From the NCBI GenBank assembly GCA_030425705.1, contig JAUHZU010000003.1, forward strand, positions 248,001-312,000: a DNA stretch of 64,000 nt, given 5' to 3'. The DNA comes from Phycisphaerae bacterium. GTDB taxonomy: Bacteria > Planctomycetota > Phycisphaerae > Phycisphaerales > Phycisphaeraceae. This document shows, one piece after another, positions 34,853 to 40,599 of this stretch. Numbering within the stretch: the stretch's first letter is position 1; every line of letters starts with the position of its first letter. Position numbers and translations under genes: made by a program. Under the pieces are notes generated by a model that was given only the letters and a program-made list of their open reading frames with translations, made no database searches and had not been told where the DNA came from.

Positions 34853-34968
34853 GGTGGGTGGAGCGAGTCCGCGAGCGATACCCACCGCGATTGTTCAACA
34901 CACTCGGCACCGCCGACGACGCTAGGATGCGGCGGTTGCTTTTGTACCCCCGCAACCGACGCTTCCCC

Positions 34969-35817: not shown

Positions 35818-35891
35818 CATGAACAGCCGTTCAACCGGCCATAACATCCTACTGACGGGTTGTACCGGCCAACTGCCGCTAGGGGTCAGGC
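35818..35891 (-). repeat. Degenerate attC-like site at the left end of the cassette array
   Basis: Reading the minus strand: R''-like GCCTGAC (expected GCCTAAC), then GCGGCAGTTGGCCGG resembling the L'' arm of the six intact sites (GCTGCAGTTGACCGG), a variable middle, CCGGTTGAACGGC, and an R'-like GTTCATG. Arms match only partly, so the site is probably decayed. Confidence 0.4.
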
Positions 35892-36404
35892 GACTTCATG
35901 CAGGACTTGATATCTCAGGCGGATCGCGTCGCCATTCAGCGGGCGGGTGTCCAAGAGCTTGAGCTGAGTGGGGTCCAGTACCTCTCCGAAGACAGGGACG
36001 CCGCCGCCGAACACGACGGGCTGAAGGTCAATCGTGATCGTGTCAACCAGCCGAGCGCGCATGAAGGAGTGGTAGACCGCGCGGCCTCCTCCGATGATGG
36101 CTTCGGGAACACCCGCCCGCCTGAGCATCTCCAAAGCGTCGGCGGGCGATCCGGCGATCTGCCACCCCGATTCGGACAAACCGTTGTCCTGCGAAGAAAG
36201 CACGATCTTATGCTCGGGGGCTAGGAGCGATGACATCTCATCGTCCTTCAACTGCTCGACGGTGCTACGGCCCGCGATGACATTGCCGACCTTATTCACC
36301 AGGGCGCACCAGTCTTCCCACGCGTGTTGCGGGAAAAGGGGGATCCCGTCGGTGTTCGCGATGAACCCATCGGCTGACATGGAGAGAAACAGTGTCTTCT
36401 TCAC
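35886..36404 (-). CDS. Dihydrofolate reductase-like (RibD C-terminal domain) protein
   Basis: 172 residues. GTG start at 36404 with AGGAG six bases before it; an upstream ATG frame lacks support. The fold signatures are SMSADGFIANTDG near the start, IAGRSTVEQL, IVLSSQ, AGVPEAIIGGGRAVYHSFM (cofactor loop) and ITIDLQPVVFGGGVPVFGE. It would be an NADPH-dependent reductase of the YyaP/YwjB group; folate specificity is not implied. The TGA stop is part of a GCCTGAC core-like heptamer, so the gene seems to be the second ORF of the last cassette. Confidence 0.85.
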   Translation of the reverse strand: MKKTLFLSMSADGFIANTDGIPLFPQHAWEDWCALVNKVGNVIAGRSTVEQLKDDEMSSLLAPEHKIVLSSQDNGLSESGWQIAGSPADALEMLRRAGVPEAIIGGGRAVYHSFMRARLVDTITIDLQPVVFGGGVPVFGEVLDPTQLKLLDTRPLNGDAIRLRYQVLHEVA

Positions 36405-36531
36405 AAGGCGCTCCTGGCAATGCAACGAGTGCGATGATCGGGCCGCCGCGAACGATCATCCTTCTAGGTCACGCGGTGGCGGCGGTCCCGCGTCCATCAC
36501 TTGGTCGTGCGTCCTCACCTTACCTGTGTGT

Positions 36532-37002
36532 TCAGGGGTGTACGCTCGCCAAGCCGGCAGCCAGCAGAACGATGGACGCGACCCCGACGCAGGTTCGCAC
36601 GTGGTTCCACCGCTGCCACCGGACCTGGTAGTCCGGCCAGACCCGATCGGCCTCACCGATATCCGCGGCCGCCAGCCGGTTGTTCAGGGGCACGTTACAC
36701 AGCATAGTGACCCCAAACGGCCCGGCTAGATACGAGAGCGACCCCACGAGCAGAAGAACACTGCCGGGTGATCCCAGCACGAGGGAAGCGTTGACCGCGA
36801 CAAGGACGCAGAGGATCGGTGTGCCGAGAAACAACAAGAGGAAAACCGGATTGATGATCTTCTCATTGATCTGCCGCATCGCCAGCATGCCTTGTTCTCT
36901 GGGAAGGGTCGCCAGAGCCTGCATCACAAAGTTCGCGAACGCGAACAAGAGCCCTGTCACCACGCCTGCCCCGGTGATCGCTGCAATCGTGATGACAGTC
37001 AT
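36532..37002 (-). CDS. DUF1772 four-helix membrane protein, cassette-borne
   Basis: 156 residues, four hydrophobic helices with the DUF1772 pattern: a first helix with GLLFAFANFVMQALATLP, INEKIINPVFLLLFLGTPI, then SVLLLVGSLSYLAGPFGVTMLCNVPLNNRLA and a last helix after WQRWNHVRT. The N-x-x-x-P-x-N-x-x-L stretch is typical (anthrone-oxygenase-like superfamily). Cassette position: GTTAGGC at 37024-37030 (minus), then a 21 nt leader, then the ATG at 37002. No attC follows its stop, so it probably shares one cassette with the DHFR-like gene. Substrate unknown. Confidence 0.85.
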   Translation of the reverse strand: MTVITIAAITGAGVVTGLLFAFANFVMQALATLPREQGMLAMRQINEKIINPVFLLLFLGTPILCVLVAVNASLVLGSPGSVLLLVGSLSYLAGPFGVTMLCNVPLNNRLAAADIGEADRVWPDYQVRWQRWNHVRTCVGVASIVLLAAGLASVHP

Positions 37003-37023
37003 GATGTTCCAGATACGACTATC

Positions 37024-37131
37024 GCCTAACGTAAAAGGCTCAGTTGCCGGCCGCCCGCGGAGAGCGGGCTCCAAACCGACAACCACATCATATCGCGGGC
37101 GCAGCCGGTCAACTGCAGCCGATGGTTAGTC
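37024..37131 (-). repeat. attC site A (108 bp)
   Basis: Minus-strand order: R'' GACTAAC (37125-37131), L'' with GGCTGCAGTTGACCGG, variable loop with a CGCCCGCG/CGCGGGCG hairpin, L' CCGGCAACTGAGCC, R' GTTAGGC (37024-37030). L'' and L' pair with single unpaired G and A. Confidence 0.92.
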
Positions 37132-37362
37132 CTTCTTTAAGTCCCACCTGAGCAGCAATTCGCCGGGCGCATTTATTAGATCAGAGTGAGCAACGAGATC
37201 GCTTCCGCACTCTCGGCATCGCGTCTCATGAATGCCCCCGCCAGTCCTTTTCCCATCCTTGGTCACGCCATCCCACATACCCACACAGAAGCCGTCGTCT
37301 GAAACAATGTGTTGGCACACAGGGCAGAAGCCTGATCCATGATCTGAGTCTGGCTGATGCAT
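37126..37362 (-). CDS. Cassette ORF: small two-knuckle zinc-ribbon protein
   Basis: 78 residues from the ATG at 37362 (a longer frame begins inside attC B and was rejected). Two Cys pairs, CPVC near residue 13 and CREC near residue 49, suggest a zinc ribbon; between them is GMWDGVTKDG. The C-terminus ends RWDLKKD and the TAA stop lies inside the GACTAAC core. The cassette opens with GTTAGCC, one base off the complement of its R''. Function unknown. Confidence 0.75.
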   Translation of the reverse strand: MHQPDSDHGSGFCPVCQHIVSDDGFCVGMWDGVTKDGKRTGGGIHETRCRECGSDLVAHSDLINAPGELLLRWDLKKD

Positions 37363-37364
37363 TG

Positions 37365-37473
37365 GGCTAACGTAATAAGGCTCAGTTGCCGGCCGCCCGT
37401 GGAAGAGGGCTACCAACCGACAACATCATTCTACTCGCGGGCGTCGCCGGTCAATTGCAGCCGCTGGTTATCC
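37365..37473 (-). repeat. attC site B (109 bp)
   Basis: R'' GGATAAC at 37467-37473, L'' GGCTGCAATTGACCGG, a loop differing from site A (AGAATGATGTTGTCGG, then TAGCCCTCTTCCACGG), L' CCGGCAACTGAGCC, R' GTTAGCC at 37365-37371. Same subtype as site C. Confidence 0.92.
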
Positions 37474-37475
37474 GC

Positions 37476-37832
37476 CTAAACGATGATGTTTCCAGGCTCG
37501 ATTTGGAAGGATTCGTATTCGGGGCTATCGTCGTAGACACGCAATGAATAGCCATTGGAAAAGTGTAGACTGATCGAGTCGGGAGGATGCGGCTTGGCAG
37601 CGATCACGTCTGTTCCAAGAAGTAGGTGAAGCCGATAGCAATCACGATCCGCATGCTCGCATTGCCGATCAACCACGTGGCCGTGTGTATCTACAAGTGA
37701 CCAATGGCTCTCGACGGAAAGCGTCGCTGAAGGGTCAAAGTGGAATTGCAATTGATGTTGGCCGACGCCGATCTGGATAAGAGTAGCTCCAGGAAAGGCA
37801 GAGAGGTCAATATCTTTGGTGACACCGTACAT
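37476..37832 (-). CDS. Cassette ORF: hypothetical protein
   Basis: 118 residues, acidic, mostly beta (TLIQIGVGQHQLQFHFDPSA; SLVDTHGHVVD; SISLHFSNGYSLRVYDDS), with no signal peptide or membrane segment and no recognised family. TAG lies directly before the GGATAAC core; the start follows GTTATCC after 8 nt, and the two cores are exact complements. Base use is visibly more AT-rich than neighbouring chromosomal genes. Confidence 0.75.
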   Translation of the reverse strand: MYGVTKDIDLSAFPGATLIQIGVGQHQLQFHFDPSATLSVESHWSLVDTHGHVVDRQCEHADRDCYRLHLLLGTDVIAAKPHPPDSISLHFSNGYSLRVYDDSPEYESFQIEPGNIIV

Positions 37833-37839
37833 GCTTGGC

Positions 37840-37947
37840 GGATAACGTAAAAGGCTCAGTTGCCGGCCGCCCGTGGAAGAGGGCTACCAACCGACAACAT
37901 CATTCTACTCGCGGGCGTCGCCGGTCAATTGCAGCCGGTGGTTATGC
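37840..37947 (-). repeat. attC site C (108 bp)
   Basis: R'' GCATAAC at 37941-37947, L'' GGCTGCAATTGACCGG, B-type loop, L' CCGGCAACTGAGCC, R' GTTATCC at 37840-37846. Differs from site B by very few bases. Confidence 0.92.
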
Positions 37948-38235
37948 CTCGCTACTTCGTAAGACAAGTGTTGTCCCGTCTGCCGCCAGCTTTGCTACTT
38001 GCTCCCAAATGATAGACCCTTCCCCTTCGAGAATAGGCACTCCATTCTCTTCACCATCTCTGTACACACACAGCGTGTGGTTCCATTCAGGGCCTATCGC
38101 GCACCAGGACGTTGCGACGATACATGATTTGCAACTCGTGCATCTGAGTATGTAACTGCCGTACTGGACAGCAGCTTCATAATCAGCCGAATCGCACTCA
38201 GGGCACCGAAGCTCATGGGGCTGATCTGGAGGCAT
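37942..38235 (-). CDS. Cassette ORF: small zinc-ribbon protein
   Basis: 97 residues. CPEC near residue 11 and CTSC near residue 32 (with a further Cys at CKSC) suggest a zinc ribbon; the rest contains GPEWNHTLCVYRDGEE and a hydrophilic tail. The ATG is built into the recombination core: the cassette begins TT-ATG-C, so insertion itself supplies the start codon. TAA lies within GCATAAC, the exact complement of GTTATGC. Confidence 0.78.
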   Translation of the reverse strand: MPPDQPHELRCPECDSADYEAAVQYGSYILRCTSCKSCIVATSWCAIGPEWNHTLCVYRDGEENGVPILEGEGSIIWEQVAKLAADGTTLVLRSSEA

Positions 38236-38337
38236 AACGTAAAAGGCTCATTGCCGGCCGCCCGCGGGAGGGGGCGGCCAACCGACATCCACATCATATC
38301 GCGAGTGCAGCCGGTCAACTGCAGCCGCTGGTTAGGC
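38232..38337 (-). repeat. attC site D (106 bp)
   Basis: R'' GCCTAAC at 38331-38337, L'' GGCTGCAGTTGACCGG, a loop with CGCCCCCTCCCGCGGGCG, L' with one G deleted (CCGGCAATGAGCC), R' GTTATGC at 38232-38238. Confidence 0.9.
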
Positions 38338-38760
38338 CGCTCTGGATACGAGGCGCCGAAACTCCTCGGCACTGTCCGGCGGCGCTTCTTCAAACAGGAC
38401 GCATCCAACATTGGACCCCGCGAACGCTTGTAAATCCTTTAGCCATTGATCCTCATCGGTGACAACAGCCAAACCAAGAAGCAATGCGCCATCAGTGGTA
38501 AAAAACACCATCGCGTGCGCGGGATCGGAGTCGCGCAGACATCGCCAATAGATCGACTGCGGCTCGGTAACATGGGAAACGCAATATGCTATTACTTCGT
38601 TCGCGCGATCGAAAACGTGTGAGGGTGAATCACCAAACTGCGGGATAGTGTAATCGTCGGCCGATTCTTCGCGTTCTGGCGCGAAGTGAGCAAGAAACCG
38701 TTCGGCTACGTCCGTGGTTCGGGTGGTTGCGAGAGCGTACACATCGTAATATCCAGGCAT
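38332..38760 (-). CDS. Cassette ORF: hypothetical protein
   Basis: 142 residues from the ATG at 38760. A compact alpha/beta protein: MPGYYDVYALATTRTTDVAE, a central strand YWRCLRDSDPAHAMVFFTTDG, then LLLGLAVVTDEDQWLKDLQ and GCVLFEEAPPDSAEEF. There is no recognised domain. TAA is in GCCTAAC; the cassette opens with GTTAGGC at 38776-38782, exact complement. Single-domain cytoplasmic protein of unknown role. Confidence 0.75.
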   Translation of the reverse strand: MPGYYDVYALATTRTTDVAERFLAHFAPEREESADDYTIPQFGDSPSHVFDRANEVIAYCVSHVTEPQSIYWRCLRDSDPAHAMVFFTTDGALLLGLAVVTDEDQWLKDLQAFAGSNVGCVLFEEAPPDSAEEFRRLVSRAA

Positions 38761-38775
38761 GAGGCAATCCTCGCG

Positions 38776-38885
38776 GCCTAACGTAAAAGGCTCAGTTGCC
38801 GGCCGCCCGCGGAGAGCAGGCTCCAAACCAACAACAACATTATCGATCGCGGGCGCAGCCGGTCAACTGCAGCAATTGGTTAGGT
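38776..38885 (-). repeat. attC site E (110 bp)
   Basis: R'' ACCTAAC at 38879-38885, L'' near GCTGCAGTTGACCGG, A-type loop, L' CCGGCAACTGAGCC, R' GTTAGGC at 38776-38782. Confidence 0.92.
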
Positions 38886-39233
38886 CGCCTGCTGGTATTC
38901 AAATGCTCCGTGGTATTTCATCGAAGCAGAGTCGGGTACACGGATTACATTCGGGGAGAAGACACATATGGCTGAGTCCGCATCGTGATTTGTGACCAAC
39001 TGGGAAAGCCATTGCTCACCATAAGATGTCCCTTGCAAAAGCTCGACCAACGGTGCGGCATTGCCGTAAATCGCTTCAATTGCCATCGGCTCGTATTCTT
39101 CGAAGTCCACTTCACGCATGAAGTCTGACGCCACCTCATCGCCGTCCTCCGTGTAGGTCGGCTCGATGTACTGACGAAGCTCATGGTCGCTTCCAAAGCG
39201 TCCGCGACTTGAGAACACATGGACAGTTGCCAT
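38880..39233 (-). CDS. Cassette ORF: hypothetical acidic protein
   Basis: 117 residues, strongly acidic (YTEDGDEVASDFMREVDFEEYEP), with a first strand ATVHVFSSRGRFGS and a later ICVFSPNVIRVPDS. No signal peptide or membrane helix. The stop TAA lies in the ACCTAAC core; the unit opens with GTTAGGT at 39238-39244, exact complement, and the ATG follows within a few bases. Unknown function. Confidence 0.72.
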   Translation of the reverse strand: MATVHVFSSRGRFGSDHELRQYIEPTYTEDGDEVASDFMREVDFEEYEPMAIEAIYGNAAPLVELLQGTSYGEQWLSQLVTNHDADSAICVFSPNVIRVPDSASMKYHGAFEYQQAT

Positions 39234-39237
39234 TGCG

Positions 39238-39346
39238 ACCTAACGTAATTCGGCTCAGTTGCCGGCCGCCCGCGGAGAGCAGGCTCCAAACCGACAATCA
39301 CATCATATCGCGGGCGCAGCCGGTCAACTGCAGCCGGTGGTTAGGC
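39238..39346 (-). repeat. attC site F (109 bp)
   Basis: R'' GCCTAAC at 39340-39346, L'' GGCTGCAGTTGACCGG, A-type loop, L' CCGGCAACTGAGCC, then GAATTACG, R' GTTAGGT at 39238-39244. Confidence 0.92.
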
Positions 39347-39574
39347 GACTTCCGTGGGCGAACTAGGAAGCCTCCGAAACACAACGAAAAGCCCGACGGT
39401 TGTGAGAGCGTTGAGGGTAGCGAAGCCGCCTAGAGTAGCAACGGATACCGTGAGATTCGGAGCGATCAATCGCTGCGAAAGACCACCGGCAGATTCAAGC
39501 ATCGTTGCCCAGATGAGGCCAAAAGTGCTGGCGAGACTGCAGATGATCAAAATTGCGACAGTCCATCTGATCAT
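39341..39574 (-). CDS. Cassette ORF: small two-helix membrane protein
   Basis: 77 residues with two hydrophobic helices (TVAILIICSLASTFGLIWATM and LGGFATLNALTTVGLFVVF) joined by a polar loop; the tail is Ser/Pro. First cassette of the array on the side where attI is expected. It opens with GTTAGGC at 39581-39587 and the stop overlaps GCCTAAC. Unknown function. Confidence 0.72.
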   Translation of the reverse strand: MIRWTVAILIICSLASTFGLIWATMLESAGGLSQRLIAPNLTVSVATLGGFATLNALTTVGLFVVFRRLPSSPTEVA

Positions 39575-39587
39575 GTTGTCGCCTAAC

Positions 39588-40599
39588 AGTTGATTGGGCG
39601 GATCAGTCTATCCTCGGATTTGAGGGGTTAGACAGACCACGAGTCTGTCTATCCAACGCGTTGCGGCCGGAAGCCGGGGAATCGCTGGGATGCAGCATAA
39701 CCGCATCGTCGCGCCTAACCAAGAGGTGATAAGCGTGTTAGCACGGTTATTGAGTATCCGGCGGTTTGTTGCTTGGCTCGTGATAGAGCGGTGATCCGAC
39801 TGTCTATCATGAAACCAATCGCTGCCAAGGATTGCTGGGATGGCCTGCTATTGATGCAATCTTTTGCCATCGCTTGGGTTAGAGCCCTGCCGCGTTGCTC
39901 CACAGCTTGCGTGTTAGGGGGTCTGCGTGAGTGGGCGGGCTTGGGAGGCGCGTTAGAGGTTTCGCGGCGTCGGTTTCGCTCGGCGAACTCGGCGTGTTCG
40001 GCGGTGGATCGTTTGAGCGGCTCTCGCAGCGGGTTGGTACGGGGGCGGGGGCGTGTGTTTTGCGCCGGACACATCCGGGACGCGGGTTGTGTTCCCGAAG
40101 GTGCGCTCCGGGAGATTGGGGGCGGGCGCTCTGTTCCCGAAGAGGCAGCGCGGCGCATCGGGGACCGGGGATGGGTTCCCGATGTTTGGGGTCATCGCAT
40201 CGGGGACGGGCGGGCGGTTCCCGATGTTTGCCCCCGGCGCATGGGGGACGAGGGGTTGGTTCCCGATGTTTCGAGTTTCCGCTTTGGGGACCGGGGGCGG
40301 GTTCCTGGTGCGGCGCGGCGGGAACAGGTGTTTTTTCGGCGCGGTGGGATGTTTCCGCGGCGTTGCCGGGCGGTTGCGGGGTTGATACGCGGGGGTCGGG
40401 CGTTATCGGCTTGGGTTTTGGGGCGGGTTCGGGCGGCGGCGCGCTAAAAGTACGCGGTTCTTTGGCCGATGGGAGGAGGGGAGGGGTGGTGCGGGTCGAT
40501 CCGGTTGTGCGGGGGCCCGTCGGCCGACTACGGCCGCATCAAGGGAAGGCAGACCGGCGTGTCTGCCCCGGGCTTCTTTTTCTGGGAAGGACAACACAG
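39588..40599. other. About 1 kb without a recognisable gene, right of the integron array
   Basis: No ORF here has a family motif. Contents seen: a 9 bp inverted repeat TAGACAGAC/GTCTGTCTA at 39629-39651; core-like GTTATGC (39695-39701) and GTTAGGC (39713-39719) on the minus strand; a periodic stretch at about 39975-40010 (CGGCGAACTCGGCGTGTTCGGCGG); the 42 bp tandem array at 40050-40310; and a hairpin GGCAGAC/GTCTGCC at 40548-40567 followed by a T-rich run, just before the next gene. Confidence 0.6.
40050..40310. repeat. 42 bp tandem repeat, about six degenerate units
   Basis: TTCCCGA (or a variant) recurs at 40092, 40134, 40176, 40218, 40260 and 40302: exactly 42 bp apart. The clearest unit (40176-40217) contains CCCGATG and CATCGGG as inverted arms with a 13 nt loop. 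A more degenerate unit lies at 40050. On the minus strand one frame gives a 14-residue periodic peptide, N-(I/F)-G-N with PVPDA, but no start or family supports a gene. Confidence 0.8.

Follow-up and report, generated by a model that had tools for sequence, protein, structure and literature searches.

The analysed window, 64,000 nt of a bacterial chromosome (C7:248001–312000 in a 4.1-Mb genome of 21 contigs, 98.7% complete), contains an array of seven gene cassettes that is headed by an attI site and bears only a stub of an integrase gene. We consider it likely, with a probability of about 0.75, that this array belongs to a chromosomal integron with several platforms, of which it would be a second one, lacking intI, and that the integrase (IntI) of the fmt locus acts on it in trans. 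Observations from sequence comparison argue for this reading at about that strength: the homology of the attI, the intI stub, a cassette (cassette 2) shared with the intI-bearing array, and the recurrence of intI-less platforms. Since the same genome holds an intact-looking integrase and an identical cassette elsewhere, a single enzyme probably acts on several docking sites scattered over the genome.

Short minus-strand ORFs alternate in the window with six attC-like sites, each of 109–113 nt and all in one shared orientation (Table 1). An attC model built from these six sites detects 13 sites in the 4.1-Mb genome, six of them in the window array; outside the window, six sites reach 81–120 bits (all with E of 1e-18 or better) and the seventh 42 bits. 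Rfam at gathering thresholds gives no match in the window. The plus strands of most sites form a single hairpin with paired R boxes, an unpaired spacer, L boxes, and a variable tip, so that the R''/R' and L''/L' arms belong to one structure. The L boxes show two one-sided bulges, T then six bases then C (T-N6-C); in the consensus fold of 33 pairs these extrahelical bases are all on the 3' arm of the plus (bottom) strand. The site at 38.2 kb prefers another fold when folded alone, yet is compatible with the consensus. Sites of the T-N6-G and T-N6-C kinds are those best excised by IntI1 (PMC3053210). An earlier note on this DNA had proposed an attC array, to be checked with a covariance model and by folding of the plus strand. 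Both analyses agree with it, and the array is a real one: six sites in one orientation, canonical bottom-strand folds, and minus-strand ORFs between them. The unpaired G and A of that note, given for the minus strand, correspond to the T and C, six nucleotides apart, on the plus strand.

When a cassette is excised as a circle, its R'' and its own start pair with each other. Such complementarity between R'' and R' extends over 10 nt in five of the six intact window cassettes and over 5 nt in the remaining one; it is longer than had been noted before. Among 32 cassettes of the source genome and its relatives, the median pairing with the own start is 10 nt, whereas pairing with the linear neighbour averages 5.3 nt, and none of 10,000 permutations reaches the observed pairing sum. 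The pairing follows the circular, not the linear, neighbour, which supports the suggested past circular intermediates. The distal cassette 7 is closed by a seventh site at 35818–35897, absent from the earlier note and missed by the attC model even with filters off. We read it as a decayed attC because it is homologous to an attC that is intact in the congener G004, where the homologue of cassette 7 is 76% identical over 1.27 kb.

Table 1. Features of the array in the window (window coordinates) and of three further platforms in the same genome (contig labels).
Feature	Location	Strand	Content
Remnant of the upstream part of an A2-type attI	39826..39945	-	77.5% over 120 nt to G001 L069:6398-6517
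attI (B type), intI-side intergenic region, and intI start codon	39583..39816	-	234-nt gapless match to C21
Cassette 1	39244..39586	-	ORF 39341-39574 (77 aa, no family); attC 39236-39347
Cassette 2 ('B')	38782..39243	-	ORF 38880-39233, Imm22/DUF4284 (Pfam PF14112, 8e-13); attC 38774-38886
Cassette 3	38238..38781	-	ORF 38332-38760 (no family); attC 38230-38338
Cassette 4	37846..38237	-	ORF 37942-38235 (zinc-ribbon-like, weak); attC 37838-37948
Cassette 5	37371..37845	-	ORF 37476-37832 (DUF6188, slightly below cut-off); attC 37363-37474
Cassette 6	37030..37370	-	ORF 37126-37362 (heavy-metal-binding domain, zinc-ribbon-like); attC 37022-37132
Cassette 7 (two genes)	35818..37029	-	Anthrone oxygenase family 36532-37002; RibD_C/DHFR-like 35886-36425 (Pfam)
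Solo platform	C1		attI-cassette-attC; attI core ...GATCCGTATACTTACTG|TTA
Solo platform	C7:392k		attI-cassette-attC; same core as C1 (GATCCGTATACTTACTG|TTA); upstream stretch matches the start region of the G010 intI at 64/81 positions
Solo platform	C13:103k		attI-cassette-attC; attI ...CATACTCACTG|TTT

The attI at the head of the array, which like the intI stub beside it is absent from the earlier note, is recognised by its homology to an intI-linked attI. Positions 39583–39816 match the intI–attI region of contig C21 with 79.5% identity over 234 nt without gaps, and the 74-nt core (39584–39657) is 96% identical to the C21 attI. The crossover G|TT lies between 39587 and 39586, with the junction CAACTG|TTAGG. 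The intI start codon ATG is found at 39809–39811 on the plus strand, and the match stops just within the gene: ATGAAACC is retained and the remainder is missing, leaving as the remnant the start codon and five more bases of the homologous stretch, with no body past 39816. Downstream of the stub, tblastn detects no relic of intI, and no IntI match is seen within the 64-kb window. The absence of intI, pointed out earlier, is therefore borne out; the adjacent integrase gene of a complete integron is lacking here. No clear sigma-70-like cassette promoter (Pc) stands out in the window attI; TTGACA-N17-GATACT is conserved across several A-type attI sites.

The G001 stretch matched by the A2-type remnant directly precedes the attI (A2 type) of the syntenic array in that congener. 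As the array head in the window carries a B-type attI together with an A2 upstream remnant, the head was replaced or rearranged in one of the two lineages. The B-type attI contains, at 39632–39657, a conserved palindrome, TAGACAGAC-TCGTG-GTCTGTCTA, with a direct repeat, GGATAGAC, near it; both are candidate extra integrase binding sites. Next to the array on its attI side, positions 40070–40310 hold five tandem units of 42 nt that carry the motif GGTTCCCGAT, and comparable GC-rich tandem repeats are seen upstream of the C1 solo platform and of locus 1 in G001.

Only one protein of the genome exceeds the integron-integrase cut-off (TIGR02249; 382 vs 265 bits). Its gene, at C21:172072–173031, has no stops. 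The protein aligns nearly over its full length (E 7e-73) with Vibrio IntI4 (PDB 2A3V), the best solved relative, and the alignment covers the HxLRH and C-terminal tyrosine motifs; judging from these features, the integrase looks intact. The closest relative, 72% identical and with the same attI type, is the IntI of an Algisphaera MAG (G062); Algisphaera belongs to Phycisphaeraceae, Planctomycetota. A planctomycete host, as previously proposed, is supported. The C21 intI is divergent from its own array, a canonical-integron layout. Next to it come attI, cassette A, an attC, and, at the contig end, a cassette that an insertion sequence interrupts. The end of C13 holds the other part of the broken cassette, another attC, another cassette, attC, and then the fmt gene. 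Because the flanks on C21 and C13 both match a single locus of G001 (L068), we take them as two sides of what would be one array, split by the insertion sequence over two contig ends. The IS3-like insertion sequence (L010:13848–13972 and L011:14953–15078) appears to split this array's copy of cassette 2, which lacks about 30 nt, and it breaks the assembly.

We propose that the platform in the window, an attI followed by seven cassettes, has lost its own intI but for the start codon, and that the C21 IntI may act on it in trans. This enzyme would excise cassettes as folded bottom strands and insert them at the window attI as well as at its own attI. In the earlier note the array was called a CALIN; with at least two attC sites and no intI nearby, the term is formally right. 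The genome-wide search for intI and attI, also suggested there, finds the intact IntI on C21 and further attI sites; together with the attI head and the intI stub, these make the term incomplete.

A lone attC occurs at four further places in the genome, three of which (C1, C7:392k, and C13:103k) are complete attI–cassette–attC units without intI. At the fourth (G000:C14:251900–252006; L029), a diverged attC (42 bits) with no clear attI is followed by a larger gene. In the earlier note, a repeat scattered singly and without cassette structure would have refuted the array; single copies do occur, but three of the four have that structure. An attI of the solo-platform kind adjoins real intI genes in five relatives (G007, G010, G015, G030, and G045).

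A model of 58 attI positions, based on 12 sites (alignment A4), was used to search 61 relatives. It recovered the training members and the held-out platform G015 C133, where the attI is directly upstream of a single cassette with attC; a second held-out attI platform was found in G064. In this family search, all 13 among the matches listed at E up to 0.02 have a correctly oriented downstream attC. Two weak matches (G010 C104 and G056 C39; E about 0.05), with no cassette seen, were taken as chance. The second array of G007, with more than 10 attC sites, is headed by attI and an intI 5' stub, this platform being 200/256 identical to the primary intI–attI region of the same genome. In G062, a B-type attI is present beside IntI and, once, without intI ahead of a cassette. 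Overall, the source genome and its relatives have 7 intI-linked and about 13 intI-less attI sites, as read from draft contigs, where some intI-less sites could link to an intI past the contig end; no contig end is near the sites of the window, G001, and G007. Both kinds are present in five genomes (G000, G007, G015, G030, and G062). Hence, the pattern recurs in relatives, where the earlier note had suggested seeking the same attC family.

The array locus is syntenic in the congener G001, as set by HlyD and cyclase genes; the siderophore-interacting gene next to the array has no orthologue in G001 and is missing at the locus there. The first ~30 nt of the query for this gene (window 34858–34890) match dozens of sites in the source genome and G001, and by these matches the sequence is a dispersed short repeat family. 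In G001, the syntenic array has a decayed attI-like site at its opposite end, inverted and followed by an ORF (L069:12538–12669). G001 has attI-headed arrays at the same two loci as the source genome. The description of the array as resident and sedentary holds for the locus, which is old, being in the same place in G001, and for the distal cassette with its homologue in G004; it does not hold for the contents, which have moved, since no cassette of the syntenic array in G001 matches those of the window, and cassette 2 recurs unchanged in the intI-bearing array.

Cassette 2 and the broken cassette of the intI-bearing array are identical at 396/396 nt (L011:14557–14952), and another 44 identical nucleotides are found at the C21 end. 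To within about 5 nt, the two cassette junctions bound the identical stretch; the flanking attC sites of the two arrays are 79–92% alike, and the neighbouring cassettes are unrelated. No other sequence comparison points as strongly to recent movement between the two platforms by an integrase. Against the two-platform reading, cassette 2 could have been acquired from outside twice, or exchanged while the local intI still existed; that no promoter stands out in this attI also counts against it, as does the reliance on synteny for the continuity of the intI-bearing array.

Alternatively, the platform could be a fossil, a degraded integron whose local intI was deleted, on which nothing acts now and whose attI and cassettes are decaying. 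CALINs are commonly viewed as degraded integrons (PMC9024848), and the bare intI stub, the decayed terminal attC, and G001, a single-contig genome with two attI-headed arrays and no matching IntI, are consistent with such an origin. We consider it unlikely: an intact IntI stands beside the same attI type in this genome, of the six attC sites, five retain the perfect 10-nt circular pairing, and cassette 2 shows 100% identity between arrays whose platforms differ by 4–20%. It is more improbable still that homologous recombination or segmental duplication between the arrays copied cassette 2 without an integrase. The similar attC sites could have served as homology for this, but the identical stretch breaks off at the cassette junctions instead of within the 108-nt attC homology, and the cassettes on either side are unrelated. 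Scatter of cassettes at non-classical attG sites, with the similarity to attI upstream being chance or a selected insertion consensus, is hardly credible, although attG insertion is known (Loot et al., 2024, as cited in PMC12444791) and single cassettes occur at four other places, given the 74–234 nt of homology upstream of the junction, the inclusion of intI 5' sequence in three cases (the window, C7:392k, and the second platform of G007), and the exact placement of a held-out platform upstream of attC by the attI model.

Going beyond the two-platform reading, we suggest, tentatively and with less than even confidence, that Phycisphaeraceae integrons might be networks, in which one integrase would serve several dispersed attI sites. 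These sites would be copied round the chromosome, in many cases together with a 5' intI stub, and would persist as distinct stations for cassettes. Cassettes would then shuffle between and within loci, and attI types would be replaced together with the integrase type.

The origin of CALINs is debated, the options being decay, rearrangement, or insertion at random sites; one survey lists 2961 CALINs vs 2760 complete integrons (PMC9024848). In the present case the orphan arrays, as well as most of the single cassettes, are located at copies of a real attI, which makes both CALIN origin and mobilisation in trans testable. IntegronFinder does not search for attI outside class 1 (PMC9024848), and orphan attI heads are therefore a general blind spot; the two attI types matched to two IntI types can help to define what an attI is outside class 1.

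The concept of CALINs and the idea that they may be mobilised in trans are already established (PMC12444791). The openly accessible papers searched gave no account of multiple attI platforms within a single planctomycete genome. Like known CALINs, the window array comprises two or more attC sites with their cassettes and has no intI close by, and single orphan cassettes are present elsewhere in the genome; unlike them, it has at its head an attI that can be recognised, accompanied by an intI stub. The sedentary integrons and fixed-position CALINs of Xanthomonas are similar in having an ancestral platform, progressive intI loss, and fixed chromosomal positions, whereas the passages of the paper concerned give no account of one genome in which several attI sites share cassettes (PMC12444791). 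One published precedent, a Shewanella prophage, has two attI-headed arrays, only one of them with intI. That case is a single cryptic prophage, whereas the platforms described here are chromosomal, occupy conserved loci, retain intI 5' stubs, number at least five per genome, and recur across genera.
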